DNA from: Alphaproteobacteria bacterium
GTDB lineage: Bacteria; Pseudomonadota; Alphaproteobacteria; Rhizobiales; Rhizobiaceae
Assembly (NCBI GenBank): GCA_024742485.1
Contig: JANSYK010000001.1
Span: 434,001 to 498,000 of the forward strand
Direction of reading: 5' to 3'
Length of the DNA stretch: 64,000 nucleotides
In this document: positions 25,759 to 40,057 of the stretch, in pieces
How the letters are laid out: every line of letters starts with the position of its first letter
Position numbering within the stretch: position 1 is the stretch's first letter
The notes under the pieces: generated by a model
What the model was told of the DNA's origin: nothing
Seen by the model: the letters and a program-made list of their open reading frames with translations, nothing else
Database searches by the model: none
Made by a program: the position numbers and the translations under genes

Positions 25759-27177
25759 ATGAAAAAGACTGATGATCCAATCCACGTCATCGGTGGTGGA
25801 CTGGCGGGCTCGGAAGCCGCCTGGCAAGCCGCCAATATGGGCGTGCCCGTCATAATGCATGAAATGCGCCCTGTTCGCGGGACAGAGGCACACAAGACCG
25901 ATTCCCTCGCCGAACTCGTCTGCTCGAATTCATTCAGATCCGATGATGCGCAAGCCAATGCAGTTGGCGTGCTGCATCAGGAAATGCGATTTGCCGATTC
26001 TCTGATCATGGCATCGGCTGACCGCCATCAGGTCCCCGCAGGCAGTGCACTGGCGGTGGACAGGGACGGTTTTTCAGCTGCCGTGACCGAATCGATTGAA
26101 GACCATCCGCTGATAACAGTCCGCCGCCAGGAAGTATCGGGACTGCCGCCGGCAGATTGGGATCAGGCCATCATTGCGACGGGTCCATTGACGGCGCCGG
26201 CGCTGGCAGAAGCCATTCAGTCCGCCACCGGAGAAGAGTCCCTGGCCTTCTTCGATGCCATCGCGCCGATTCTGCACTTTGACAGCGTCAATATGGATAT
26301 TTGCTGGTTTCAGTCGCGCTACGACAAGATCGGCCCGGGTGGCACCGGCAAGGATTATATCAATTGTCCGATGGATGAGGCCCAGTACAACGCCTTTATC
26401 GATGCGTTGCTCGATGGTGAAAAAACCGAGTTCAAGGAATGGGAAGGCACACCCTATTTCGACGGTTGCCTGCCCATCGAGATCATGGCCGAGCGCGGAC
26501 GAGAAACCCTGCGGCACGGCCCCATGAAGCCGATGGGTCTGACCAATGCGCACAATCCGGACGTGAAAGCCTACGCGGTGGTGCAATTGCGCCAGGACAA
26601 CGCGCTCGGCACGCTCTACAACATGGTCGGTTTTCAGACGAAGCTCAAATATGGCAGCCAGAAAGCCATCTTGCAGATGATACCGGGACTGGAAAATGCG
26701 GAATTCGCCCGCCTGGGCGGTCTGCACCGCAACACCTACATCAATTCGCCGCAATTGCTGGATCCGACCGCCCAGTTGAAGACAAGACCGGGTCTGCGCT
26801 TTGCCGGCCAGATTACCGGCTGCGAGGGCTATGTGGAATCGGCGGCAGTCGGCCTGCTGACAGGGCGTTTCGCCGCCGCAGAACGCCTGGGGCTTCAGCC
26901 ATCATTGCCACCGGCCACGACAGCGTTCGGGGCCCTGCTGGGACACATTACCGGTGGCCACCTGACCAGCCAGGATGAACCGGGAAAGCGGTCCTTCCAG
27001 CCGATGAATGTCAATTTTGGACTGTTCCCGCCCGTGGAAATCGTCAAGCCGGAAGGCGTCAAGCGCTTCCGCGGCAAAGACAAGGCAATTGCAAAAAAGA
27101 AGGCCATTTCCACACGCGCACTGGCCGATTGCCGCCATTGGCTCGATCTGGAATCCCAAACCGACGCGGCACAATAG
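25759..27177 (+). CDS. trmFO: Methylenetetrahydrofolate-tRNA-(uracil-5-)-methyltransferase
   Basis: 472 residues. An FAD- and folate-dependent enzyme that forms m5U54 in the T loop of tRNAs. FAD-binding motif [18 protein letters not shown], then [16 protein letters not shown], and [20 protein letters not shown] of the GidA-like family; the [10 protein letters not shown]-terminal motif is TrmFO-specific. ATG at 25759. The next gene follows 11 bases after the stop. Confidence 0.95.
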
Positions 27178-27188
27178 GAGCCTGCCCA

Positions 27189-28031
27189 TTGGATTACTCC
27201 TCAAGCTTCTTTGTGGTCACAACCGACGGCCCCGTCGCCCGCATATCGATGAACCGGCCGGAAAAAGCCAACGGCATGACGCCCGATTTCTGGACCGAAC
27301 TGCCACGGCTCATGGCATTGCTGGAGAGCGACGAAAAAATTCGCTGCGTGGTCCTAACCGGCGAGGGAAAACACTTCACCGGCGGCATGGATCTGGCTGC
27401 TTTCAGCGCCATCGCGGCTCTGTTCAAGGAGGAGCCAGGCCGCGCAGCCCATGCGTTGCGCGAAAAGATTACCCGATTGCAAGACACGTTCAACGCCTTG
27501 GAACGGGTGCGTTTCCCGGTCATTGCCGCAATTCACGGCGCTTGTATAGGTGGCGGGATCGACATGATTACCGCCTGCGACATCCGATTGGCATCCCGGG
27601 ATGCATTCTTTTCAATCGAGGAAATCAATATCGGCATGACCGCTGATGTCGGCACATTGCAACGCCTCCCCAAACTGATTGCACCGTCAATCGCCGCCGA
27701 ACTGGCCTATACCGGTCGCCGTTTTTCCGCCGAAGAAGCTTTGAGCTACGGACTTTTGAGCCATGTGGAAGATACCCGCGACGAAATCATTGCGCACGCA
27801 CTGGATATGGCCCAACAGATTGCCGCGAAATCGCCTCTGGCCATTGCCGGCATCAAGCGGAACCTGGCCTATAGCCGCGACCATGGCGTTGCGGACGGGC
27901 TCGACTATATCGCAACCTGGAACAGCGGCATGCTGCGCGGCGACGACCTCACACGGGCAGCTTCCGCCGCCATGACCAAGAAACAGGCGGTATTCGACGA
28001 TTTGCTTGGCGACGACGTGCTGCAGATCTGA
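27189..28031 (+). CDS. Crotonase-family enzyme, delta(3,5)-delta(2,4)-dienoyl-CoA isomerase-like
   Basis: 280 residues from a TTG start (27189) with AGGAG 8 bases upstream. The crotonase fold shows the oxyanion-hole segments (KHFTGGMDL and GACIGGGIDM). The stretch ACDIRLASRDAFFSIEEINIGMTADVGTLQRLPK closely follows eukaryotic ECH1, whose catalytic Asp and Glu lie in this region, so isomerisation of 3,5-dienoyl-CoA during oxidation of unsaturated fatty acids is the best guess. General enoyl-CoA hydratase is the alternative. It sits with trmFO, before the catabolic island. Confidence 0.85.
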   Translation: MDYSSSFFVVTTDGPVARISMNRPEKANGMTPDFWTELPRLMALLESDEKIRCVVLTGEGKHFTGGMDLAAFSAIAALFKEEPGRAAHALREKITRLQDTFNALERVRFPVIAAIHGACIGGGIDMITACDIRLASRDAFFSIEEINIGMTADVGTLQRLPKLIAPSIAAELAYTGRRFSAEEALSYGLLSHVEDTRDEIIAHALDMAQQIAAKSPLAIAGIKRNLAYSRDHGVADGLDYIATWNSGMLRGDDLTRAASAAMTKKQAVFDDLLGDDVLQI

Positions 28032-28068: not shown

Positions 28069-28794
28069 TCAGATTGTCAGCGTCCCCACACTCGCACCGC
28101 CACAGACATAAAGTGTCTGGCCGGTAACGAAACCGCTTTCCGGCGCACAGAAGAACAGGAACGCGTGTGTGACATCTTCCACCGTGCCGAGCCGGCCGAC
28201 CGGGATACGGTCGGCAAGCGCCGCTTGCTGATCGCTGTCTTTCTCGACAATGCCCCAGAAGTTATCCGTGAGGATGGGCCCGGGCGCCACCACGTTGACG
28301 GTTATCCCGTGGGGCGCAAGCTCCAGCGCCCATGTACGCGCCATGCCGATCATGCCCGCCTTGCTTGCGCTGTAGGCCGTGCGTGTTGGCGCTCCAAGCG
28401 CGGCGCGCGAGGCATTGAACAACACCCGGCCAAAGCCGCGTTTCTTCATTGAAGGCAGGCTGGCCTGAAGCAAAGTCAGGGCCGATCCAAGATGGAGTTG
28501 CGCAAGACCGGTTATCTCGTCCGGTTTGGCCGCTTCCACCAGGGCGGGCCAGATCAGACCCGCATTGTGGACGAGATGGGTCACCTCAAAACGATCCGCG
28601 ATCGCATTGGCCGCCCGTTGCACGTCATCAGGCTCCAGCAGGTCGGCTTTGATGGAATGCAGGTTCGGATGCTGCTCCTCCGGATCGTGGCGCGCAACGC
28701 TGATCACCGAGTAGTCTTGAGCAAGCAGCTTGGCTGCCAGGTCGGCGCCGATCCCCTTGTTCGCGCCCGTTATGACCGCGGTGAACTTGCTCAT
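28069..28794 (-). CDS. SDR family oxidoreductase
   Basis: 241 residues of a classical short-chain dehydrogenase: NAD(P) motif TGANKGIG (9-16), NAG (77-79), catalytic Ser129, Tyr141 and Lys145 (YSASK), and a C-terminal GQTLYVCGG segment. All catalytic residues are present, in contrast to the SDR domain at 29561-30814. It is the last gene of the eight-gene oxygenase operon, with a 4-base ATGA overlap with the cyclase gene. It might oxidise a cis-dihydrodiol or a hydroxyacyl-CoA intermediate; the substrate is unknown. Confidence 0.9.
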   Translation of the reverse strand: MSKFTAVITGANKGIGADLAAKLLAQDYSVISVARHDPEEQHPNLHSIKADLLEPDDVQRAANAIADRFEVTHLVHNAGLIWPALVEAAKPDEITGLAQLHLGSALTLLQASLPSMKKRGFGRVLFNASRAALGAPTRTAYSASKAGMIGMARTWALELAPHGITVNVVAPGPILTDNFWGIVEKDSDQQAALADRIPVGRLGTVEDVTHAFLFFCAPESGFVTGQTLYVCGGASVGTLTI

Positions 28795-29564
28795 GACGGT
28801 ACCACCGCAAGCACGCGCAGCGGACTGCCCGTGCCTCCTTTGATTTTCAGCGGTGCGGCAACCAGCAAAGCGCCGGTCGGTGGCAGCTGGTCCAGATTGT
28901 TCAGACACTGCAACCCGAATTTCCCGGCGCCATGCAGATAAAAATGCGCCGGATAGGGAGGTGTATAGTGGCTCCCCTGCCCGGCATCGGTGCCGATGGT
29001 TTCGGTGCCAAATCCGCGAATATCCCGTTCCTCGATCAGATATCGGATCGCATCAGGCGTCGGACCGGGTGAATGCGGACCATCATCGCGCATGTTCAGA
29101 TAGTCCGCACCCCGACGCTTGGACCAGTCGGTGCGCATCAGGACCCACGCATCACGGGGCACGGGGCCGTGCTCTGTCTCCCAAGCATGGATGATCTCCA
29201 CGGTTAACTCATGGTCGTCATTTTCCGCAGCACCGGCACTGCAGTCGATCACGACAACCGCACCGATCAGGCGATCGGGGCTTATTTCGTCGACGGAGCC
29301 GTACGGAACATCACGTCCGGATATCCAGTGCGAAGGCGCATCGAAATGGGTGCCGGTGTGTTCGGACATGGAGATATTGTGCCATTTCCAGGCGGGCCCA
29401 CGATGATCATAGGCGCTGATTTCCTCCATTCGGAACCGTGCGCATTGGCCGAATTCGGGTGGCAGGATGATGACCGGAAAATCCGGATCGAGCGTGTGGG
29501 TCAGGTCCACGACACGCAACGCCCCTTTGGCGATGGCCTCGGCAAATTCGCTCAAACCGGTCAT
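28791..29564 (-). CDS. Cyclase family hydrolase (kynurenine formamidase-like fold)
   Basis: 257 residues. The metal-binding signature HTGTHFDAPSH lies at 69-79, as in bacterial KynB-type formamidases, isatin hydrolase and polyketide 'cyclases'. Members hydrolyse amide, lactam or lactone bonds. In this operon it may open a ring or lactone made by the oxygenase pathway; this is inference. Both ends are coupled by 4-base ATGA overlaps to the neighbouring genes. Confidence 0.88.
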   Translation of the reverse strand: MTGLSEFAEAIAKGALRVVDLTHTLDPDFPVIILPPEFGQCARFRMEEISAYDHRGPAWKWHNISMSEHTGTHFDAPSHWISGRDVPYGSVDEISPDRLIGAVVVIDCSAGAAENDDHELTVEIIHAWETEHGPVPRDAWVLMRTDWSKRRGADYLNMRDDGPHSPGPTPDAIRYLIEERDIRGFGTETIGTDAGQGSHYTPPYPAHFYLHGAGKFGLQCLNNLDQLPPTGALLVAAPLKIKGGTGSPLRVLAVVPS

Positions 29565-30814
29565 GCTTCTTCTTGCCCCATGGTCATTTCGCGTTCCAGA
29601 ATCTTTGGATCACGGCGCCAGCGCTCTCGGATATCCTTGGCCACATCTCCGCACCACACATCTTCCAGCCCGTCCTGAAGACCTGCGATCACCGATCGGG
29701 CCAATGCGGCCGGCGTGACCTTCGGCGGCGGCAACAACTGGTACCATTCATCTTCGGTGGGTCCGCAATAGACATTCATCACCCGCAATCCCGAATCGCG
29801 AAATTCGGCACGCAAGGACTGGCTAAGCGAATAGGCGGCCGCATTGGATGCCGAATAACAGCCGAATCCGGGATCGCTGGAGAGTGCGTAAACCGACAAG
29901 ATGTTCACCCAGGCAACCGCCGAGTTGACGCCATCCGACGTCCGCGCGCACATGCCCGGACCGAAAGCCTGCGCCAGCCGCACCAGGCCGAGATAGTTGA
30001 TCTCCATCTCTTGCTGCGCAAAAGCGGTGTCGTCGCGGGCCAGTGCGCCGCCGGGGCGCAGGAACCGCGCATTGTTGATCAGAATATCGGTCTTGCCTCC
30101 GATCTCTCCGGCCAATTGACGGACAGACGCCGTATCGGTCAGGTCCAATGACAGAACCTCCGCACCTGCAGCGGCCAGGTCGGCCCCTGCCGGATTGGGG
30201 CGCCAGGTCTCGCTTTCGCCAACAAACACCTTTGCCGCTCCGGCTTTGAACAGGTGCTCGACCAGTGCCAATGCATTTGGATTGCGACCGTCGCTGACAA
30301 GGACGCGACGGTGATTGGGATCGCAACTGAGGCTCCGCATAACCGGATCGTCTTCCATGTTTTGGGTCCTTTCAATTGGCAATGCCAGGAGCACGCCCTG
30401 TCCGGACCGGTCCAGCCGGTTGAGGATCCGGACCTCACCCTCTCGCGGGCAATCACCATGGATATGGCACAGGATCACGGGTCCTGCGTTCAGCTTCACG
30501 GAGCCCACCCGCCAGGGTGCGCGCTCGCGAAAATAGAGCCGCGTCGATGTCCGGACCGTTGTTTCGGCCAGAAGCGTTCCATGCGGGTCCTGGTCGCGCC
30601 AGGGCAGATCCGTCCCCAGGCAGGCATGGCAGGCATCCCGGGGTGGATATTGCACGGTCCCGCATTCGCTGCATTGCTGCAGGGCAAAACGCCCCTCGGC
30701 AGCGGCCGCGCTGAGACCCAGCGCCGCCCTGCTTCGCAATTCCGGCGGACGCGTCGGAGACGTAGAGCGCTTTTGCGGGTTCTTTTTTTGTGGTGGTGCG
30801 AGGGGATCGGTCAT
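29561..30814 (-). CDS. Zinc-ribbon/OB-fold (DUF35-like) protein fused to a degenerate SDR domain
   Basis: 417 residues. Residues about 30-150 match the DUF35/ChsH2-type zinc ribbon plus OB fold, with Cys48, Cys51, Cys62 and Cys65 as ligands. Residues about 168-400 form an SDR Rossmann domain that lacks key residues: no TGxxxGxG glycine motif, NNAR instead of NNAG (247-250), and YSASN, with Asn324 replacing the catalytic Lys, although Ser307 and Tyr320 remain. DUF35 proteins partner thiolase-like enzymes, and the thiolase-like gene lies directly upstream with an ATGA overlap. The fusion probably serves as partner subunit of that protein; the SDR part may be structural. Confidence 0.82.
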   Translation of the reverse strand: MTDPLAPPQKKNPQKRSTSPTRPPELRSRAALGLSAAAAEGRFALQQCSECGTVQYPPRDACHACLGTDLPWRDQDPHGTLLAETTVRTSTRLYFRERAPWRVGSVKLNAGPVILCHIHGDCPREGEVRILNRLDRSGQGVLLALPIERTQNMEDDPVMRSLSCDPNHRRVLVSDGRNPNALALVEHLFKAGAAKVFVGESETWRPNPAGADLAAAGAEVLSLDLTDTASVRQLAGEIGGKTDILINNARFLRPGGALARDDTAFAQQEMEINYLGLVRLAQAFGPGMCARTSDGVNSAVAWVNILSVYALSSDPGFGCYSASNAAAYSLSQSLRAEFRDSGLRVMNVYCGPTEDEWYQLLPPPKVTPAALARSVIAGLQDGLEDVWCGDVAKDIRERWRRDPKILEREMTMGQEEA

Positions 30815-31983
30815 ATTCGCGCCCCTTCGCTGATAATCGCCGCGGCGGAGCACACACCCCGGTCGAAATTGATCATCCCAAAGCCGGAAACCATCGCACA
30901 ACCCGCCGCCGGCACCTGCGTATTTCCCGCGGTCCCGGTCACCTGACGCAAGGCCTCGACCAGCCCGATATACCCTCCGGCAGCACCCGCCTGCCCGGCC
31001 GAAAGCTGACCGCCGGAAGTGTTGTGCGGAAAAGTGCCATCGATGGTCAGGTCATGACGGCGGACAAACGCCGGCCCTTCCCCCTTGCCGCAAAATCCCA
31101 GGTCCTCGATCTGCATCATCGAAATCACCGGATAGTCATCATAGGTCTGCAACAGGTCGATATCGGCCGGCGCGCGGCCAGCCATCGCGTAAAGTTCGTC
31201 GATGTCCATTGTCCAGCCACCGCGCAGTTGAATTGGATCGTCGGCATGGGCATTGTGACGTTCGATCGCGCCATCGAGGCAGGCATAGGGCAAGGCGCGT
31301 CGGATGGCCTCCTCCTCAGACATGACCAGAAAACACTCGGACCCGGCGCAGGGCATCACGCAATCGAACAGCGCAATCGGGTCGGCTATCGGTCGTGCGT
31401 TCAGGTAATCGTCAAGCGACAGCGGTTTCTTCATCACTGCATTGGGATAGCGCATTGCGTTGCTGCGCTGTGCCACGCAGATGCGTCCGAAATCGGCGCG
31501 GGTCGCACCATATTCCCGCATGTAGCGGTCGGTCAGCAGAGCGAAATTGGCGTTCGGACCACCAAAGCCATAGGGATATGACGCATCCATGGCAAATCGC
31601 GAAAAGCTGGAAAGCATGTTGCGAAAACTGTCGATGTGGTTGGTGTCGCCGGCGACACAGGCAACAATGTCGGCATCGCCTGCCTGAACGGCCCGTGCGG
31701 CACGGCGCAGGGCGACCACGCCACTGGCCCCGCCCATGGGGATATGATCCAGCCAGCGCGGTGTCAGACCCAGATGCTGTGTCAGTCCAACCGCGGTATC
31801 GGGAAACAAGGTAAAGCTCGACACGCAGAACCCGTCCAGATCCGCCGGCTTCAGCCCGGCAGCATCAAGCGAGCCGCGAAGCGCCTTGGCGATCCACCAA
31901 TGCGCCGTATCAACAGAATACCGCACATAGGGATGCGAATACGGTGCAACAATTGCGACACCCTCATAGGATTGGCGAGACAT
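30811..31983 (-). CDS. Thiolase-like protein without catalytic Cys (SCP-x/Ltp2 group, predicted retro-aldolase)
   Basis: 390 residues of the thiolase superfamily. At the position of the nucleophilic Cys (xCASG) the sequence reads MGGASG, with Gly85. The C-terminal GHP motif is also absent (NTSGGQLSAGQAG). The YDDYPVISMMQIEDLGFCGKGEG region is of SCP-x/Ltp2 type. Ltp2-like proteins with a DUF35 partner cleave the side chain of steroid beta-hydroxyacyl-CoA by retro-aldol reaction rather than thiolysis. The coupled DUF35 fusion downstream supports this reading. ATG 31983 overlaps the ligase stop (TGATG) and is the family start; 65 codons of open frame upstream lie inside the ligase gene. Confidence 0.83.
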   Translation of the reverse strand: MSRQSYEGVAIVAPYSHPYVRYSVDTAHWWIAKALRGSLDAAGLKPADLDGFCVSSFTLFPDTAVGLTQHLGLTPRWLDHIPMGGASGVVALRRAARAVQAGDADIVACVAGDTNHIDSFRNMLSSFSRFAMDASYPYGFGGPNANFALLTDRYMREYGATRADFGRICVAQRSNAMRYPNAVMKKPLSLDDYLNARPIADPIALFDCVMPCAGSECFLVMSEEEAIRRALPYACLDGAIERHNAHADDPIQLRGGWTMDIDELYAMAGRAPADIDLLQTYDDYPVISMMQIEDLGFCGKGEGPAFVRRHDLTIDGTFPHNTSGGQLSAGQAGAAGGYIGLVEALRQVTGTAGNTQVPAAGCAMVSGFGMINFDRGVCSAAAIISEGARI

Positions 31984-33614
31984 CAACGAGTCCTGACCCC
32001 GGCCAGCTGCCGTTTCTTCAGATGAACCGTGTTCGCCGTCGCCGGATCTGTCAACAGTTCCAGAGCCAGGGCCTTGAGCTCCGAACGCTGGATTTTTTGC
32101 GTCGCTGTTAGGGGCAGGACGTCGACAAATGCGACATAGCCGGGCACCTTGTAGTAGGCCATCTGCTGCAGGCACCATTCCACAATATCGTTGGCGCCAA
32201 GCGCCCGCCTGACTTTCAGGCAGGCAAACACTTCATCGCCGCGCATCGCATCCGGCACTGCTGCAACTCCGGCTGCCTCGATGTCCGGATGGTGCATGAG
32301 GATGGATTCCACTTCTACGGCAGCAATATTCTCGCCGGAGCGGCGGATGACGTTTTTCTTTCGGTCCACGAAAAACATGTTCCCATCTGAATCTTCGCGA
32401 ACGATGTCGCCGGAGTGAAACCAGCCACCGGCCCACGCCTCGGCGGTCGCTTCGGCATCCTTGTAGTAGTGGGAGAAAAACCCAAAACGAGGATCCTTGC
32501 CCGCACGGCGGACCAGGAGTTCACCGGGATCTCCAGCATCAACGGCATTGCCGTCATCATCGGCTATCATCGTTTCAACTTCTGCGCCGACGCGTCCGAT
32601 GCTGGCTTGTCCAACAAGCCGGTCCGATGTTGATGCCGCGATAACGGCACCGGCGCCGGTTTCCGTCATCGCCCAGGCTTCGACAAGCGGGAACCCGAAC
32701 CGCGTTTCAAACGCCACTTGAATCTTTGGATCGACACCGGCGCCGAACCCGAAACGGACGCTGTGTGCCTTGTCAGCCGGTGATGCCGGCAATCCGATCA
32801 GCATCGATGGCATGACACCCAGATAATGCAGACAGGTCGCCTGCGCATCGCCGACGTCCTTCCACCAGGACCGGGGATGAAACCGGTCGAGCACCGTCAG
32901 GCAGCCCCCCACGGCAAGCATCGCCATGAAGGAGTAGGCCATGGCGTTCATATGGAAAATCGGCAGCGGCGTTATCATCCGTTCGCCATCGTCGCGGAGA
33001 TCCGCCAGTCCGCCAACCCCGGCATACCACTCCCCGGCCAACAGAAAATATCGGTTCGGAAGGACGCATCCCTTGGGAGCACCGGTCGTCCCCGACGTAT
33101 ACAGAACCGCTGCCTCGCGCGCTGCGCCCTCCAATGGCTCTGCCGTCACGGCATCAGGGCGACGGCCGGATGGCACGGCCCCTGGTGAGGCGACGGGAAC
33201 CGTGATTCCTGCAGCTATCGCCGCTTTCCGCAACTCGTCCTGACGCGGTGCCATGGCAATGATCAGGGCCGGTTCACAATGTCCGATCAGAAAGGTCAAT
33301 TCGGCAAGGCGCAAATCGGGATTGATCGGCACCGCCGATGCGCCGATGCGGTTGAGCGCCAGCCAAAGGAGGAAAAACTCGGGACGGTTTTCGAGCAGCA
33401 GTCCGACGCGCATGCCGGTCCCGTACCCGGCATCCGTCAACATCCCGGTCAATTCATCAACCCGTGCGAGTGCATCGGCGTAGGTCATCTCGCCACTGCT
33501 GATCCCGTAGACGTTTGCAGTTGACGGCAGAACATTCAGCATCGGCCGATCCGGGAAGCGATGCGCCGTCTTCGCAAAGGCATCAAAGACTGTCTGTGTA
33601 CCGGGCTCGATCAT
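31983..33614 (-). CDS. AMP-dependent acyl-CoA synthetase/ligase
   Basis: 543 residues of the ANL superfamily. The phosphate-binding motif TSGTTGAPKG is at 173-182, with the adenylation motifs GWFHSGD and DRKKNVIRRSGENI, and a C-terminal region ending TATQKIQRSEL that contains the catalytic Lys. It activates a carboxylic acid to its CoA thioester; medium-chain, aryl or alicyclic acids are all possible. Coupled at both ends: ATGA overlap with the oxygenase beta subunit and TGATG with the thiolase-like gene. Confidence 0.92.
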   Translation of the reverse strand: MIEPGTQTVFDAFAKTAHRFPDRPMLNVLPSTANVYGISSGEMTYADALARVDELTGMLTDAGYGTGMRVGLLLENRPEFFLLWLALNRIGASAVPINPDLRLAELTFLIGHCEPALIIAMAPRQDELRKAAIAAGITVPVASPGAVPSGRRPDAVTAEPLEGAAREAAVLYTSGTTGAPKGCVLPNRYFLLAGEWYAGVGGLADLRDDGERMITPLPIFHMNAMAYSFMAMLAVGGCLTVLDRFHPRSWWKDVGDAQATCLHYLGVMPSMLIGLPASPADKAHSVRFGFGAGVDPKIQVAFETRFGFPLVEAWAMTETGAGAVIAASTSDRLVGQASIGRVGAEVETMIADDDGNAVDAGDPGELLVRRAGKDPRFGFFSHYYKDAEATAEAWAGGWFHSGDIVREDSDGNMFFVDRKKNVIRRSGENIAAVEVESILMHHPDIEAAGVAAVPDAMRGDEVFACLKVRRALGANDIVEWCLQQMAYYKVPGYVAFVDVLPLTATQKIQRSELKALALELLTDPATANTVHLKKRQLAGVRTR

Positions 33615-34087
33615 GGAAGAAGCTGAATATTGCCAAACGCGGCGTCAGAATTCAGCAGGTCGACGCGCTTGCTGGCGATCCGCAATGCCCCATCGACCAA
33701 ACGCAACTCATGGGTCGCCGTCAGGGCCAGAAGGAATTGTTCATCCAGCCGCGTTTCGACGTAATGCATCGAGGTGTTGGTGACAAACCGATCCCCATCC
33801 ATCTCATCCACAAATGGGCGCTGAATGACATGATGGCAGCGGCTCTTCGGCTTCTGGCTGAACGTGCGTGCGCCATTGAGCCGCTCGACCCGCAAACGCA
33901 GCATGAACATGTCCTCGTAAAGCAATGAGGTGACCAGATGCGGGTCCGTCTGCTTGTAATCCAGAGGCATCCAGTAGTGACCGTCATCAAGCCAAAGGGC
34001 GAGCCATTCGTCATAGCGCCCCTCATCAAGCATGCGGGCTTCGTCATAGATGAAATCAATCAGCTGTTCGCGGGAGACAGACATCAT
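33611..34087 (-). CDS. Aromatic-ring-hydroxylating dioxygenase, beta subunit
   Basis: 158 residues of the NTF2-like small-subunit family (YDEARMLDEGRYDEWLALWLDDGHYWMPL at the start, then SRCHHVIQRPFV and THELRLVDGALRIASKRVDLLN). It has a structural role in the alpha3beta3 oxygenase. The first of two consecutive ATGs overlaps the stop of the alpha gene (ATGA). Confidence 0.92.
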   Translation of the reverse strand: MMSVSREQLIDFIYDEARMLDEGRYDEWLALWLDDGHYWMPLDYKQTDPHLVTSLLYEDMFMLRLRVERLNGARTFSQKPKSRCHHVIQRPFVDEMDGDRFVTNTSMHYVETRLDEQFLLALTATHELRLVDGALRIASKRVDLLNSDAAFGNIQLLP

Positions 34088-35394
34088 GCATCCTCCATCG
34101 AGGCGGTCATGAATTTGACCCATGCATCAAACTGATTGCGCATCTGGCGTTCCGTGGTTCCGTTCTCGACATCCTGTTCGGAGAAATCCTCCGGCCCGGT
34201 CCTCAAGCGCCGGACATCTACCCACTCCATACCGTCAGACAACAATCCTTCCTGGGCCCGTTCATACATTTCCAGATCATCATGACCGACGATCGAGGTC
34301 GGAGCATTGATCATGCGGTTATACATGGCCGTGCGCGCCAGAAGTTCATCGGGGGCATCGACAAGCCGGTAGATATAGCTCTCCACCAGGGTGCGGCTGG
34401 GACCGAGCGGAATGAAATTCCGCAATTGCTGAATGGGTCCTTTGACCATGACGTTGGGAAAGTAGACCGTGTTGTGCCGATTTTCATCCAGGATCGCCTT
34501 GGCCCGTTCTTCACCATACGCCTCCACCATGGCCTCGAAATAGCCGGGGATGGCTTCGTAATCCGAATGGATCGAGTGGTTTACGCCCGTATGCCCGTGC
34601 CCGTTGGGCCAGGTGCGAATTCCCATATCCTCGAAAAATTCATAGGGAGACATGAAGGGGGCGATAATCTGCATCGCCACCGGGCGCGGCTCGGGATTGC
34701 CCATCTCTTCCCAAATCTTGACCGCCGTGCCGGCACTGCTTTCATGCGCGACCATCGGATGGCAGGTATCCGTCTGGTTTTCGACGAGCATCTTCCAGTT
34801 GCACTGGTGCATGTAGCGCAGCGGCGGACCGGCGACCTCCAAACGTCCCGCCGGCGAACGGTCCACCATATTGTCGAGAGACGACAGACTGTCGCCGAAA
34901 TACTCTTCGAACCCGATCCCTTCTTCAGCCAGACGGGCAAAGACGAAGCCTCGATGCACATGAACGGCGCCGACAGCCTTCATGCCCTTGCCGTTTTCGC
35001 TCTCGCCAAGACCGGTGCCGTCATACCCCTTCTTCAACGGGATCGCCAGCAGGCAACCATCGGTCTTGAAGCTCCAGGCATGGTACGGACAACGGAAGAA
35101 CTTTCCGGTATTGCCATCACGATCTATTGCGATCTTCGTGCCCTTGTGCGGACACCGATTATGCAGAACATGGATTTCACCATCGGAATGGCGCACCTGA
35201 ATGACCGGCTGGTCGCCGATCTGCGTCGTGAAGTAGTCACCCTTTTTCGGCGTCTGGCTATCATGGCCGACAAAGATCCATGCATCGGTAAACAGGTGGC
35301 GCATCTCGAGTCGATACAATTCGGCGCTGGTATAGACGTCACGGTGAACTTGAGGCCCGTTGAAGAGTGCGCGTATGTCAGCAGCATTTGTCAT
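34084..35394 (-). CDS. Aromatic-ring-hydroxylating dioxygenase, alpha subunit (Rieske)
   Basis: 436 residues. Rieske [2Fe-2S] ligands are Cys81, His83, Cys102 and His105. The mononuclear iron site has His212 and His217, with Asp209 as the usual electron-transfer bridge (ENQTDTCHPMVAH). The sequence belongs to the group around benzoate, anthranilate and cumate dioxygenases, but the substrate cannot be assigned. It inserts both atoms of O2, or one, into a ring substrate, using electrons from the reductase encoded just upstream (12-base gap). Confidence 0.93.
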   Translation of the reverse strand: MTNAADIRALFNGPQVHRDVYTSAELYRLEMRHLFTDAWIFVGHDSQTPKKGDYFTTQIGDQPVIQVRHSDGEIHVLHNRCPHKGTKIAIDRDGNTGKFFRCPYHAWSFKTDGCLLAIPLKKGYDGTGLGESENGKGMKAVGAVHVHRGFVFARLAEEGIGFEEYFGDSLSSLDNMVDRSPAGRLEVAGPPLRYMHQCNWKMLVENQTDTCHPMVAHESSAGTAVKIWEEMGNPEPRPVAMQIIAPFMSPYEFFEDMGIRTWPNGHGHTGVNHSIHSDYEAIPGYFEAMVEAYGEERAKAILDENRHNTVYFPNVMVKGPIQQLRNFIPLGPSRTLVESYIYRLVDAPDELLARTAMYNRMINAPTSIVGHDDLEMYERAQEGLLSDGMEWVDVRRLRTGPEDFSEQDVENGTTERQMRNQFDAWVKFMTASMEDA

Positions 35395-35406: not shown

Positions 35407-36342
35407 TCAAAGATCCAGAACCAGCCGGGCGGAACGGGCTCGACTGACACAGATTTGCATGATTTTTCCGGATTCCCGTTCGGCATCGGTTAGAACCACA
35501 TCGCGGTGGTCAGGCTCACCGGAAATCACATCGGTCTGACAGATGCCGCAATCGCCACGCTGGCAATCATACATGATATCGACACCCGCTTCTTCCAGGA
35601 CCTCGATTATGGTTTTGTCCGCCGGAATGGTGAAGACCTGGCCTGTGTCGTGAATCTCGACCTCGAACGACGTCTCGTCGCCTGCAGGTTCCGGAGTGGA
35701 AAACAGCTCCACATGGATGTCGCTGATTCCGGCTGCCTCCGCAGAAGCACGGGCCGCATCAATCATCCCTTTCGGACCGCATATGTAAAGCTGAATGCCC
35801 TCTGGCTGATCCGCCATCAATGACGTCAGGTCCAGCGGTTCGACATCATCGAAATGCAGCGACAGATGATTTTGGAAGTGCGAACACAAACTCTCTGTGA
35901 ATCCCATAACGGCTTCACTGCGCCCTGCATAATGGAAGGCGAATTTCCGACCTTGCGCCAGAAGTGCCGTCGCCATCGAAATCAGCGGAGTCACGCCAAT
36001 CCCGCCTGCCAGTAGCAGAACCGGTGTTTCACCGGGAATCAGTTCGAAATCGTTCGACGGCGAGGTAGCACTCACCTGGTCACCGACCTGCAAGGCATGC
36101 ATCGCCAGAGAACCGCCCTGCCCGGCGTCTTCTTTCTGCACTGCAATGCGGTAGGTGGCAAGATCACGGTCACCCGGCCAGTCGATCAACGAATAGGATC
36201 GCGTACCTGCCGCCCCGAGATCGAAATCAAGATGAGCACCAGGGGTATAGTCAGGCAACGCGCTGCCATCGGCCGCGCCAAATTGCAACTCACGGATGGC
36301 CGGTGTTGCGTCAACAATCTGCTGGAGGGTCAGCTTTGGCAT
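35407..36342 (-). CDS. Ferredoxin-type oxygenase reductase (phthalate dioxygenase reductase class)
   Basis: 311 residues in the order FMN/ferredoxin-reductase barrel, NAD-binding domain (LLAGGIGVTPLISM; ICGPKGM) and C-terminal plant-type [2Fe-2S] ferredoxin with Cys260, Cys265, Cys268 and Cys298. It passes electrons from NAD(P)H to the Rieske oxygenase. It is the first gene of the minus-strand catabolic operon. ATG 36342 (MPKLTLQQIV) is preferred to an upstream start that would run into the operator palindrome. Confidence 0.92.
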   Translation of the reverse strand: MPKLTLQQIVDATPAIRELQFGAADGSALPDYTPGAHLDFDLGAAGTRSYSLIDWPGDRDLATYRIAVQKEDAGQGGSLAMHALQVGDQVSATSPSNDFELIPGETPVLLLAGGIGVTPLISMATALLAQGRKFAFHYAGRSEAVMGFTESLCSHFQNHLSLHFDDVEPLDLTSLMADQPEGIQLYICGPKGMIDAARASAEAAGISDIHVELFSTPEPAGDETSFEVEIHDTGQVFTIPADKTIIEVLEEAGVDIMYDCQRGDCGICQTDVISGEPDHRDVVLTDAERESGKIMQICVSRARSARLVLDL

Positions 36343-36364
36343 AGAGAACTCCCTTGCCAATATT

Positions 36365-36380
36365 ATATGAATTTTCATAT
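36365..36380. promoter_or_regulatory. Operator palindrome between the oxygenase operon and marR
   Basis: ATATGAA-TT-TTCATAT, perfect 7-base arms around TT, 22 bases upstream of the reductase start and 62 bases upstream of the divergent marR start. Its 14-base core recurs at 37088-37101. Palindromes of this size are typical MarR sites. Confidence 0.75.
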
Positions 36381-36442
36381 TGTTTGAGCAAGGCAAATAT
36401 TTTCTCTTGTGAAATCAAGGCAAATAGCCAAGAAGTTTGCAC

Positions 36443-36913
36443 ATGACAGACGGCCCAACCCAACCCGACCAGACAGACGACGGTTTTGTCTCGTCCTATC
36501 TGCTCTATCTCCTGGCTGCCTCAAGCGATGCGGCGAGTGCAGAGTTTCACGCACATGTGCGCCGCGCCGGCCTCCGGGTACCTGAATGGCGGGTTCTGGC
36601 CTGTCTGGGAGACCGGGATGGCCAGATGATCACACGTTTGGCGGATATTGCACTGGTCGAGCAGTCTCGCCTGACACGGATCATCGACCAGATGGTGACA
36701 CGCGGGCTGCTGGTACGCCGCGACGATCAGGAAGACAAACGGCGGGTCCGCATCTACCTTACCGCAGAGGGCGCCGCGCTGAGCAAGAAACTGGTGGCGG
36801 ATGCGAAAGTGCACGAAAAAACTCTGCTGGCCGCCCTGCCCGCAGACTGCGCGACGGCATTGAAACCGGCCCTGGCGGCATTGCTCGAGGGCCTCGCGTC
36901 ACGGCGCAAATAG
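36443..36913 (+). CDS. MarR-family transcriptional regulator
   Basis: 156 residues with the winged helix of the MarR family (LRVPEWRVLACLGDRDGQMITRLADIALVEQSRLTRIIDQMVTRGLLVRRDDQEDKRRVRIYLT). ATG at 36443. Divergent from the oxygenase operon and upstream of the TRAP genes, with the same palindrome on both sides, it is the obvious regulator, probably a repressor relieved by the pathway substrate or its CoA ester. Confidence 0.92.
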   Translation: MTDGPTQPDQTDDGFVSSYLLYLLAASSDAASAEFHAHVRRAGLRVPEWRVLACLGDRDGQMITRLADIALVEQSRLTRIIDQMVTRGLLVRRDDQEDKRRVRIYLTAEGAALSKKLVADAKVHEKTLLAALPADCATALKPALAALLEGLASRRK

Positions 36914-37087
36914 CGCCCCGGTGCTGTGTTGATTGGTTTGGCTGATAGTCTATGCAAACGCATAAATTGGCGAGATAGCGGCGCTATTGGTTGAGGGAAA
37001 TCGGGAGGCACTTGGGTGTAGATGTCCACAGAACGGATTGAAAGCTTTGGCTTTTTGCCCCATCCGAATTCATCATGGACAATTTGC

Positions 37088-37101
37088 ATGAATTTTCATA
37101 T
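37088..37101. promoter_or_regulatory. Second copy of the MarR operator, upstream of dctP
   Basis: ATGAATTTTCATAT, identical to the core of 36367-36380, 74 bases before the TRAP binding-protein gene. It links transporter expression to the same regulator. Confidence 0.75.
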
Positions 37102-37174
37102 AAATTTCGCGGATGAGGGAGAAAAGGCGACGACAAATGCCCCCCAAGTCATGGATAAATTTTGGGAGAAGACC

Positions 37175-38185
37175 ATGAAATATCTTAAGACCATCGCGGC
37201 CGCTGCCGCAATTAGCCTCGGCCTTGTGGGTCCGATGGCAGCGCAGGAGACGACTCTCCGTATTTCGTCCTGGCTGCCGCCAACCCATGGCATCAACACC
37301 GAGATATTTGCCAATCTGATAAAGATGATGGAAGAAGCGTCGGACGGCGCGGTCACTGGTGAACTGGTCTTTGGCCTTGGGCCACCGCCAGCCCAGATGG
37401 ATTTGGTGCAGGACGGTGCGGCCGATATCGCCATCATCTTCCATGGTTATCAGCCGGGTCGTTTCGTTGGAACGCAGTTGATTGAACTGCCTGGCTACGA
37501 AGGCAGTTCAGAAGCCGCGTCCGTTGCCTATTGGCGTGTGCACGAAGACCATCTCGCTGCGCTCGATGAACATCGTGGTGTGCGCTTGATCGCACTCACA
37601 ACCCACGGCCCCGGACAGATCCATGCTGTTGATCCGGTGGAGAATCTGGCTGGATTGAACGGCCTGAAAACGCGGATCGGCGGCGGTGTTGCCGGGAATG
37701 TCGGTTCTGAACTCGGCCTCGTCGGTATCAATGTTCCGGCTCCTCAGGTCTATGAAACGCTCGAATCGGGTGCAGCGGATGCCGTGGCGATGAATGTCGG
37801 TGAGCGTATAGGCTTCCGCCTGAACGAAGTGGCACCGGTTCTCTACGAAATGCCGGGCGGTTTCTATCGTGGCTCCTTTGCCATCATCATGAGCGAGGAG
37901 ACGTTCGCCAGCCTGCCTGAGAACGTCAGGGCGGCTTTTGATGAAAAGGTTTTTGGGGAACCTGCCAGCCGCATGGCCGGCGTTGCGTGGGATCTGTCCG
38001 ACAAACTGGCCTATGAGGCCATGGGTGATGGCACGACAACGATCAAGGCCAGCGCAGCCGATCAGGAAGCGTTCGCCGCGATAGCAGAAACAGTCAGGAC
38101 CAATGTTCTGGCCGAGCTTGATGCTGCCGGCATCGACGCCAAGGCTGCCCATCAGATGGTTCGCGATGTGATGGCGGAGAACTGA
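37175..38185 (+). CDS. TRAP transporter substrate-binding protein (DctP/TAXI-unlike, DctP family)
   Basis: 336 residues. A Sec signal peptide (MKYLKTIAAAAAISLGLVGPMAAQ) precedes a DctP-type binding domain; GLKTRIGGG carries the conserved Arg that binds the substrate carboxylate in DctP proteins. GGGAGAAGACC precedes the ATG at 37175. It delivers an organic acid to the DctQM membrane complex encoded next. The substrate is probably the one degraded by the oxygenase operon. Confidence 0.92.
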   Translation: MKYLKTIAAAAAISLGLVGPMAAQETTLRISSWLPPTHGINTEIFANLIKMMEEASDGAVTGELVFGLGPPPAQMDLVQDGAADIAIIFHGYQPGRFVGTQLIELPGYEGSSEAASVAYWRVHEDHLAALDEHRGVRLIALTTHGPGQIHAVDPVENLAGLNGLKTRIGGGVAGNVGSELGLVGINVPAPQVYETLESGAADAVAMNVGERIGFRLNEVAPVLYEMPGGFYRGSFAIIMSEETFASLPENVRAAFDEKVFGEPASRMAGVAWDLSDKLAYEAMGDGTTTIKASAADQEAFAAIAETVRTNVLAELDAAGIDAKAAHQMVRDVMAEN

Positions 38186-38253
38186 GTTTCATCTGAAGAT
38201 ATGGCTGTGGCACGGACGGGTGCCACAGCCCTTTTCAATCGAAAGCAGCTCGC

Positions 38254-38751
38254 GTGACCTCCCAGCTGAAACATTTGCTGAAACTACCGGATTATCTGGC
38301 TTCGATCGCACTGTTTGCGCTGATGGTCGTCACCTTCAGCGATGTCATGTTGCGATCAGTCCTGAATGCGCCGATCGAAGCCGGCGCGGATTTGACGCGA
38401 TTGCTGATGACGATCACGGTGTTTGCGGTGATGCCAGCGCTGTCGGCGCGCGGCGGACAGATCAGTGTCGACTTGCTGGACGATATTTTTCAAAACTGGG
38501 GCCTGAGCCGGCTGCGAGACGGGCTGGTCAACCTTCTGTGCGGCGGCGTTCTGTTTTGGCCGGCTGAGCGGGTTTGGGTTCTCGCCGAGCGATCCAGATC
38601 CTATGGTGACGTCATGGAGTATCTGGGCATGCCGGTTCACTACGTTGCCTGGTTCATTGCTTTGTTTACTGCCCTGACAGCCGTGGCCATGATCGGCCGC
38701 GGAATTGCCTGTCTGTTTTTTCCCGCATGGCTGGAGAAACACAGTGTTTGA
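38254..38751 (+). CDS. TRAP transporter small permease (DctQ)
   Basis: 165 residues with four predicted membrane helices, as usual for DctQ. The GTG start at 38254 is 68 bases after dctP. The small subunit binds the large permease and is needed for activity. The 3' end overlaps the dctM start by 8 bases. Confidence 0.9.
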   Translation: MTSQLKHLLKLPDYLASIALFALMVVTFSDVMLRSVLNAPIEAGADLTRLLMTITVFAVMPALSARGGQISVDLLDDIFQNWGLSRLRDGLVNLLCGGVLFWPAERVWVLAERSRSYGDVMEYLGMPVHYVAWFIALFTALTAVAMIGRGIACLFFPAWLEKHSV

Positions 38752-40057
38752 AGGCCTTATGGGCTTTGCCGCCGTCCTTGTTCTTGTTCTTTTGCGCGTT
38801 CCGATTGCCTTTGCCATGGGCATCGTCGGCATGGTGGGCTTCACCTATGAGACCAGTTTTCGCGCGTCGATATCCATGGTCGCGCGACTCATCATCGACA
38901 CCAGCCAGAATTATGGCCTTTCGGTCGTTCCGCTGTTCATTCTGATGGGCCTTTTCGTCAACAAGGCAGGCATCAGCAGAGAGCTTTATACCGCCTCAAA
39001 CGCCTTTCTGGGTCATTTGCGTGGCGGGCTGGCCATGGCAACGATCGTGGCTTGTGGCGGCTTTGCAGCCATCTCCGGTTCCTCTCTGGCAACCGCCGCG
39101 ACGATGTCCAAGGTCGCCATGCCGGAGATGCGGCGCTACAATTACGCCGACAGCCTTTCAACCGCCTCGATCGCAGCCGGTGGAACACTGGGCATTCTGA
39201 TCCCACCGTCGGTAATATTGGTGATCTACGGGTTGCTGACGGAAACCTCCATTGGAAAGCTGTTTATCGCTGGTGTTGTTCCCGGCGCCATCGGCATTCT
39301 GTTTTATCTTCTGGCCGTACGTTATGCCGTCTGGCGCGATCCGGACGCTGGACCGCCCGGAGACCGCGTGGCTTGGCGTGATCGTCTCCGCGCCCTGCGA
39401 TCAGTCTGGGCGGTTCTGCTCCTCTTTTTCCTTGTCATCGGCGGGCTGTACGGAGTGTTTGATTTCGAACCGTTGAACATCGCCTTTTCACCGACTGAGG
39501 CAGCAGGCATGGGTGCCATGGGCGCTTTCCTGATCGCACTGGCGCGTATGCGCCTGAGCCTGGCGGACACTCTGGAAGTGCTCTCGGAAACCGCAATGAC
39601 AGCGGCTTCCCTGTTTGCGGTCCTGATCGGTGCCTGGATCTTTTCGAATTTCGTGAACATTGCCGGCCTGCCACAAGCCCTGTCGGGTATCGTGACCGCC
39701 TATGACGTGGCACCGTGGATGGTGATGGCGATGATCATCGGCATCTACATTCTGCTCGGTTGCGTGTTCGAGAGCCTGTCGATGTTGCTTTTGACGGTGC
39801 CCATCTTCTTTCCGGTTGTGATCGAACTGGGGTTTGATCCGATCTGGTTCGGGATCGTCGTTGTCGTCGTCACCGAGATCAGCCTGATCACGCCTCCGGT
39901 CGGCATGAATGTGTTTGTGCTCAAATCCGTGGTGAGGGATGTGTCGACGGGAACCATTTTCCGCGGCGTCACGCCATTTTGGGCCTTTGACATTCTCAGA
40001 TTGCTGCTGTTGCTTGCCCTTCCCGGCCTGGTGCTGTTTTTGCCCGGTCAGATGTGA
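38744..40057 (+). CDS. TRAP transporter large permease (DctM)
   Basis: 437 residues from the GTG at 38744. It is very hydrophobic, with about twelve helices and DctM motifs (GLFVNKAGISRELY; GTLGILIPPSVILVIYGLLTETSIGKLFIAGVVPG; ITPPVGMNVFVLK). It carries sodium-coupled solute transport. It is the last gene of the dctPQM operon and ends just before a hairpin terminator. Confidence 0.93.
   Translation: MFEGLMGFAAVLVLVLLRVPIAFAMGIVGMVGFTYETSFRASISMVARLIIDTSQNYGLSVVPLFILMGLFVNKAGISRELYTASNAFLGHLRGGLAMATIVACGGFAAISGSSLATAATMSKVAMPEMRRYNYADSLSTASIAAGGTLGILIPPSVILVIYGLLTETSIGKLFIAGVVPGAIGILFYLLAVRYAVWRDPDAGPPGDRVAWRDRLRALRSVWAVLLLFFLVIGGLYGVFDFEPLNIAFSPTEAAGMGAMGAFLIALARMRLSLADTLEVLSETAMTAASLFAVLIGAWIFSNFVNIAGLPQALSGIVTAYDVAPWMVMAMIIGIYILLGCVFESLSMLLLTVPIFFPVVIELGFDPIWFGIVVVVVTEISLITPPVGMNVFVLKSVVRDVSTGTIFRGVTPFWAFDILRLLLLLALPGLVLFLPGQM

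Follow-up and report, generated by a model that had tools for sequence, protein, structure and literature searches.

The window analysed here is a 64,000-nucleotide stretch of an alphaproteobacterial (Rhizobiaceae) genome (contig JANSYK010000001.1, positions 434,001 to 498,000). On its minus strand lie two overlapping genes, iadG and iadH. The first (30811..31983) encodes a 390-residue protein that we predict to be a thiolase-fold retro-aldolase. The second (29561..30814) encodes 417 residues comprising a DUF35 part (zinc ribbon and OB fold, approximately residues 30-147) and a degenerate short-chain dehydrogenase/reductase (SDR) domain (approximately residues 170-410); its ATG at 30814 forms an ATGA overlap with the end of iadG. 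At E ≤ 0.001 the only Pfam match of IadG was Thiolase_C_1 (PF22691), while IadH matched zf-ChsH2 (PF12172), OB_ChsH2_C (PF01796) and adh_short (PF00106) in a single chain. A DUF35-SDR fusion encoded by a gene adjacent and coupled to that of the thiolase homolog, as an earlier sequence-only reading of this DNA had described, was thus confirmed. The same reading had predicted a retro-aldolase by comparison with enzymes of steroid side-chain degradation. Sequence, predicted fold, phylogeny and gene context support the reaction type, but the steroid substrate did not stand: the genes belong to an iad operon for the degradation of indole-3-acetic acid (auxin), and the likely substrate is the coenzyme A (CoA) thioester dioxindole-3-acetyl-CoA. 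We put the probability that IadG and IadH remove the auxin side chain by retro-aldol cleavage at about 0.8.

The case for a lost thiolase activity begins at the active site. HMMER alignment placed Gly85 of IadG (31729-31731) opposite the nucleophile Cys85 of the true thiolase BbsB (PDB 7pxp), and Gly330-Gln331-Ala332 opposite the thiolase GHP motif. Relatives were compared in two sets, both including the window: 62 sequences at ≥55% identity and 99 at ≥48% identity. In the narrower set Gly84, Gly85, Tyr281-Asp282-Asp283-Tyr284 (31132-31143) and Gly330-Gln331-Ala332 were each found in 62/62, so that the positions of the nucleophilic cysteine and the GHP histidine are occupied by glycine and glutamine throughout. 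In the wider set YDDY, Gly330 and Gln331 were present in 99/99, and Gly85, Gln326 and Ala332 in 98/99 each; the sole exception at Gly85 (L087) is a gene broken by a frame change. IadG thus lacks the cysteine nucleophile, the HDAF motif and the GHP motif of thiolases, which bears out the two losses noted in the sequence-only reading. All 16 listed NCBIfam models (thiolases, acetyltransferases and lipid-transfer proteins) matched it far under their cut-offs.

The residues that IadG does hold resemble those of two characterised aldolases, the steroid aldolase TcLtp2, which works with the DUF35 protein ChsH2 (PDB 6ok1), and the bile acid side-chain aldolase CtSal-CtShy (PDB 9myr; PMC12329534). Tyr281 aligned with TcLtp2 Tyr294 (YDHF) and CtSal Tyr302 (YDCY), which are described in PMC12329534 as the base taking the β-hydroxyl proton. 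Gln326 and Gln331 aligned with CtSal Gln347 and Gln352, and Gly85 with Sal Gly89, a residue said there to contact the hydroxyl. The same source assigns the role of the acid to Tyr344 in Ltp2 and to Cys304 in Sal. IadG conforms to neither pattern: Asp283 occupies the Sal Cys304 position in 99/99 sequences, so that the YDC motif of Sal proper is absent, and in place of YDHF and Tyr344 of Ltp2 proper IadG has YDDY and Gln331. Three cysteines were invariant among the 62 close relatives. Since Cys298 also occurs in Sal, Ltp2 and BbsB, Cys109 in Sal and Ltp2, and Cys208 in Ltp2 and BbsB, none is particular to the IadG family. The possibility of a catalytic cysteine elsewhere in the protein, raised in the sequence-only reading, was dropped on this alignment, which also shows none at the Sal Cys304 position.

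Structure prediction pointed in the same direction. The model of IadG (predicted local distance difference test score, pLDDT, 78; predicted template modelling score, pTM, 0.84) had 9myr as its best PDB match, followed by 6ok1; true thiolases ranked close behind, and the fold alone therefore cannot tell the reaction. The IadH model (pLDDT 81) matched best to the SDR 5u4s, with a template modelling (TM) score of 0.85 by target length, and has a Rossmann SDR fold. Both models were built from alignments of close relatives (29 of 36 available rows for IadG, 32 of 38 for IadH) and are weak in IadG 117-143 and 199-208 and in IadH 10-26, 93-97 and 253-260. A maximum-likelihood tree of 45 rows united the YDD proteins (97/90) and recovered the IadG clade at 100/100, with Sal, Ltp2 and the Cys thiolases outside. 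Support is weak for the relative order of Sal, Ltp2 and the YDD group (90/50, 82/37) and for the basal branch of the IadG clade by which L137, L056 and L086 are held together (84/44). A YDCY thiolase homolog encoded elsewhere in the window's genome (L006, C120:64503-65537) groups with Sal.

Judged by fold, loss of the Cys and His residues, a putative Tyr base in a YDxx motif and an adjacent DUF35 gene, IadG-IadH would join the DUF35-partnered thiolase-fold aldolases of the Ltp2/Sal kind. With CtSal-CtShy the pair shares the Tyr base, a GGQLS.GQ loop, the glycine replacing the Cys nucleophile and the DUF35 partner. It differs in having YDDY where CtSal has YDCY with its catalytic Cys304, in forming a separate clade, and in its partner: the zinc site is Cys3His in the Shy DUF35 domain but four cysteines in IadH (99/99 fusions, see below), and CtShy carries a working MaoC hydratase domain as described in PMC12329534, whereas IadH carries the degenerate SDR domain. 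TcLtp2-ChsH2 is alike in its thiolase fold, in Tyr294 and in a DUF35 partner with four zinc cysteines, and unlike in its YDHF motif and Tyr344 acid (residues via PMC12329534). BbsB, a benzoylsuccinyl-CoA thiolase, shares the thiolase fold and, according to the title of a reference in PMC12329534, also works with a zinc-finger partner subunit; unlike IadG it is a true thiolase with Cys85, HDAF and GHP.

The surrounding genes, all on the minus strand, indicate what such an enzyme might act on. Behind the pair follow iadI (28791..29564), an isatin hydrolase of the Cyclase family (PF04199) that matches PDB 5nnb at E 8e-151 with 208/255 identical residues, and iadJ (28069..28794), an SDR dehydrogenase with intact TGANKGIG and YSASK motifs. 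Ahead of it lie iadF (31983..33614), an AMP-forming acyl-CoA ligase; iadE (33611..34087, in a reading frame that opens at 34123, with the probable start at 34087), the β subunit of a ring-hydroxylating oxygenase (7yls_A, E 4e-43; the sequence is the same in 9o71); iadD (34084..35394), the Rieske oxygenase α subunit (9o71, E 3e-167, 56% identity over 427 residues; also matching 7yls); and iadC (35407..36342, in a frame that opens with TTG at 36396, the probable start being the ATG at 36342), the oxygenase reductase. A MarR-family regulator gene (36437..36913, plus strand; 3cdh, E 1e-48; 7kki and 7kfo, both about 3e-18) diverges from the operon, and between it and iadC an imperfect inverted repeat with 20-nt arms, 75% complementary, forms a candidate operator (36352..36393).

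This collinear series iadC-J with a divergent MarR gene is the arrangement of the iad auxin locus, one of the two known aerobic bacterial pathways of auxin degradation (PMC9613470). In the Variovorax paradoxus CL14/CL014 locus (PMC10374108, PMC12633357) the pair holds the equal operon position and order. In PMC10374108 the Methods list gene identifiers consistent with the C-J order, with iadH-J and iadE-F given there as ranges only. Four genomes from a single genus (g403) share the order C-D-E-F-G-H-I-J; their IadD proteins are 87-95% identical to V. paradoxus IadD in 9o71, the structure of V. paradoxus IadDE (PMC12633357). The names in PMC12633357, namely IadF acyl-CoA synthase, IadG acetyl-CoA acetyltransferase, IadH alcohol dehydrogenase, IadI kynurenine formamidase-like and IadJ dehydrogenase, match the window operon gene by gene; together with the collinear order this identifies the operon, from its sequence, as an iad-type locus and the pair as IadG-IadH. 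The Variovorax core region ends in the ATP-binding cassette (ABC) binding protein IadK2 (PMC12633357); the window operon adjoins a tripartite ATP-independent periplasmic (TRAP) transporter.

The sequence-only reading knew of no description of the arrangement. The proteins themselves are in print as IadG and IadH. A word search of the main text of PMC12633357 gave no instance of DUF35, aldolase or lyase, and neither DUF35 nor aldolase appears in PMC9613470 or PMC10374108. Our literature search found no proposal of a retro-aldol mechanism for the auxin side chain, although most subscription journals and supplements lay outside it, so that one may be in print. In the public records of three genomes (L001, L002, L003) IadH is called 'SDR family NAD(P)-dependent oxidoreductase' and IadG 'thiolase family protein', names that reveal neither the DUF35 part nor the lost motifs.

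Genetic and metabolite data have been published for Variovorax. According to PMC12633357, the IadJ counterpart makes dioxindole-3-acetate, normal production of anthranilate from auxin depends on iadG as well as iadH, and the loss of either lowers anthranilate and leads to accumulation of C10H9NO4. A metabolite C8H7NO3 was detected and shown not to be N-formylanthranilate (PMC12633357); in a Pseudomonas strain with another cluster, the auxin metabolite of this formula was isatinic acid (PMC8383072), and dioxindole, isatin and isatinic acid were all detected in Variovorax (PMC9613470). In Roseibium aggregatum IAM 12614 (L021) the gene after IadH encodes a protein that is 255/255 identical to the printed part of isatin hydrolase A (PDB 5nnb). 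A known isatin hydrolase thus adjoins the pair, which indicates isatin as the product of the latter. The window's genome also holds a second isatin hydrolase-like gene (L148, C120:457066-457824) with 50% identity to the operon copy.

These observations can be assembled into a reaction scheme. IadF would form the CoA thioester of dioxindole-3-acetate (C10H9NO4), giving dioxindole-3-acetyl-CoA. The β carbon (C3) of this thioester is a quaternary carbon bearing the hydroxyl group, a tertiary alcohol that is not oxidisable to a β-ketone. Thiolysis therefore has no substrate, while retro-aldol cleavage is possible. Tyr281 of IadG would deprotonate the C3 hydroxyl, upon which the C-C bond to the CH2-CO-SCoA arm would break, yielding isatin (C8H5NO2) and the enolate of acetyl-CoA. 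The proton taken up by this enolate would probably come from Asp283, which stands where Sal has Cys304. By analogy with Ltp2-ChsH2 and Sal-Shy, IadH is expected to dock on IadG through its DUF35 domain, which would shape the site, while the SDR domain may be maintained as a non-catalytic scaffold, lid or product-handling element. IadI would then hydrolyse isatin to isatinate (C8H7NO3), on the way to anthranilate. The retro-aldolase reading explains why an isatin hydrolase is the next enzyme and makes a reductive step unnecessary. It also predicts the genes needed by an engineered auxin pathway; iad is being built into root bacteria to promote plant growth (PMC12633357). If it is true, IadG brings a new active-site type to the small family of DUF35-partnered aldolases. 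We give roughly even odds to a wider proposal: that IadG is a third active-site type of thiolase-fold aldolase (Tyr/Asp in YDD, besides Tyr/Tyr and Tyr/Cys) that removes the auxin side chain without redox chemistry, that the SDR domain of IadH was acquired working, then lost its chemistry and was kept as a structural or product-handling domain, and that a wider YDD clade with stand-alone DUF35 proteins cleaves other β-hydroxyacyl-CoAs.

The state of the SDR domain was assessed in 99 distinct fusions, the window included, collected at ≥38% identity and ≥85% coverage (truncated fusions are thus uncounted); four identical proteins had been removed, which reduced 103 to 99, as had two copies of the window. 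With this number of distinct proteins the fusion is no sequencing error. All four zinc cysteines of DUF35 were present in 99/99. The TGxxxGxG cofactor motif had largely decayed: its first glycine was retained in a single protein and replaced by Asp in 91 and by Asn in 7 of the 99, the second was kept in 4/99 and the third in 60/99. At the catalytic positions we found Asn in 74, Ser in 92, Tyr in 23 (lost in 76) and Lys in 35; Tyr and Lys occurred together in 4/99, and the full Asn-Ser-Tyr-Lys set likewise in 4/99 (L115, L126, L136, L137). IadH of the window reads VSDGRNPNA at the cofactor motif and YSASN at the catalytic motif, so that Asn, Ser and Tyr are kept while Lys is replaced by Asn, and neither classical SDR signature, TGxxxGxG nor Asn-Ser-Tyr-Lys, is complete. 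Among 23 control SDRs (22 relatives without a DUF35 match, L057-L078, and IadJ) all three glycines were present in 19/19 readable sequences, Lys in 23/23 and Tyr in 16/23. As 7/23 controls also lack the tyrosine, its loss alone is not special to IadH; that of the first glycine is. The four IadH proteins of genus g403 all read TDGKTETG and TFSASK, which suggests, as far as close kin can tell, that the motif loss extends to the organism whose IadH was called a dehydrogenase. At the same time the mean column identity of the SDR domain (0.663) equals nearly that of DUF35 (0.667), a GP(D/E)..W.Q....P loop is nearly invariant and Asn248 is present in 99/99; the domain is therefore under selection for something. 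Given a retro-aldol step, we regard it as probable that this something is not catalysis.

Several points weigh against this interpretation, some of them against the cleavage and others against a silent SDR domain. Without iadI, a compound C8H7NO2 accumulates in Variovorax (PMC12633357), which is the formula of dioxindole and holds two hydrogens more than isatin; the isatin formula C8H5NO2 is found nowhere in that source's main text. A retro-aldol reaction must assume that C8H7NO2 is isatin reduced by the cell. Replacement of CtSal Cys304 by Ala, Ser or His abolished activity (PMC12329534), from which it would follow that the acid site is not freely exchangeable, and Asp283 as an acid would be new. 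As to IadH, conservation of the SDR domain matches that of DUF35, its fold appears to be kept (5u4s, TM 0.85), the window protein retains three of the four catalytic residues, four fusions hold all of them, and the closest solved SDR relative is titled as an NADP complex despite a Leu at the Tyr position; the absence of Tyr from 7/23 controls has been mentioned. Moreover, the one iad-like operon with an SDR-free DUF35 protein comes from a single assembly (L139) with more distant oxygenase subunits (45%, 33-34%).

In the strongest rival, IadG is a retro-aldolase as proposed, but the SDR domain has kept oxidoreductase activity by means of an atypical cofactor site and, for example, reduces isatin to dioxindole inside the complex. 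The accumulation of the dioxindole formula without iadI (PMC12633357), the conservation of the domain and the residues that survive (the third glycine in 60, Asn in 74, Ser in 92 and Lys in 35 of the 99, with Asn248 in all) are in keeping with it, as are Asn, Ser and Tyr in the window and a divergent fusion, L137, that is fully intact. Against it stand the Asp or Asn at the first glycine in 98/99, the second glycine kept in 4/99, the loss of Tyr in 76/99 and the Asn for Lys in the window. The next enzyme is, besides, a hydrolase named for isatin, not dioxindole, and two loci (L139 and L086) have a DUF35-type protein without any SDR domain. We consider an active SDR domain unlikely and retain retro-aldol cleavage by IadG with a non-catalytic SDR domain in IadH.

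How the fusion may have come about is suggested by a few divergent loci. On a 7-kb contig (L137/L138) a fusion with a fully intact SDR domain lies beside a YDDY relative of IadG in which Gln326 is replaced by Met, so that an active version of the DUF35-SDR fusion may exist. Together with the SDR-free proteins of L139 and L086 this would fit an order in which a lone DUF35 came first, its fusion to a working SDR second and the loss of the SDR chemistry last; this order is only a suggestion because the supporting branch is weak (84/44).

Association of the genes was surveyed in 98 loci with IadG at ≥48% identity, the window included; eleven loci were excluded from the counts, namely the window itself (L005, L049), copies (L138, L056, L091, L092, L093, L094) and three distinct loci (L089, L090, L095). 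A DUF35 protein starts directly behind IadG in all 95 loci with enough sequence, an isatin hydrolase starts 0.3-2.2 kb behind the end of IadG in 86/95, and the complete C-J set is present in 28 of the 42 loci with wide flanks. At L139, one of the nine exceptions, the isatin hydrolase is 3.8 kb off; its iad-like set comprises the ligase, IadG (59%), the stand-alone DUF35 protein, an IadJ-like SDR (48%), oxygenase subunits (45% and 33-34%) and the isatin hydrolase (56%). No isatin hydrolase was found within 2.7-2.8 kb of sequence at L098, L109, L117 and L137. At four loci (L004, L083, L084, L086) the ligase, IadG and the DUF35 protein are the sole members of the set in 8 kb or more of sequence, and these loci may serve another substrate, such as other β-hydroxyacyl-CoA compounds.

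Loci of this kind, where G-H(-I) occur without oxygenase genes, lend some weight to a second rival, that the pair of the window cleaves the β-hydroxy thioester of another aryl-acetyl-CoA, much as IpfD and IpfE are held to act on ibuprofen-CoA dihydrodiol. The ipf pathway follows a like logic of CoA ligase, ring oxygenase and retro-aldol cleavage of an aryl side chain to an acyl-CoA (PMC9195938); we compared it by description only, and IpfDE, which has a different substrate, is also called a thiolase in that source. A full iad set with an isatin hydrolase in the window, and an IadD that is 56% identical to the solved one, make this rival very unlikely. IpfE is a presumed DUF35 protein. Four other loci (L079, L080, L081, L082) combine the pair with an isatin hydrolase and have no oxygenase genes within the stretch covered; these, too, may act on other β-hydroxyacyl-CoA substrates. 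More distant plasmid relatives (L088, L140, L141, L146) are YDD(Y/F) thiolase homologs with separate OB-fold (DUF35-type) neighbours, amid genes for a CoA transferase, acyl-CoA dehydrogenases, a ring oxygenase or an enoyl-CoA hydratase, and are possibly undescribed aldolases.

The scheme of PMC12633357, a 2025 preprint, has the side chain removed reductively to C8H7NO2 by the joint action of IadG as a genuine ketothiolase and IadH as a functional alcohol dehydrogenase. It is annotation-based and draws on the accumulation of that compound, but we find it very unlikely, given Gly and Gln at the Cys and His positions in 62/62 sequences, the failure of all 16 listed NCBIfam models and a quaternary C3 at which no β-ketoacyl-CoA can form. 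Retro-aldol cleavage contradicts this assignment, which looks wrong both chemically and structurally. A steroid or bile-acid aldolase was dropped, as no pointer to steroids above a cut-off emerged from the ten proteins scanned in the region of the pair and IadG falls outside the Sal and Ltp2 clades, and an ibuprofen-type cluster was dropped once the isatin hydrolase was found in the operon.

Two features border the operon. On the plus strand, the TRAP transporter genes DctP-DctQ-DctM (37022..40057, the DctP start being either 37022 or 37106) may have a role in auxin uptake; TRAP genes also adjoin the iad operon in Sulfitobacter (L002), Labrenzia (L003) and Paracoccus (L085). At the other end an enoyl-CoA hydratase family gene (27129-28031, plus strand) converges on the operon and, lying on the opposite strand, was not counted as a member of the pathway.

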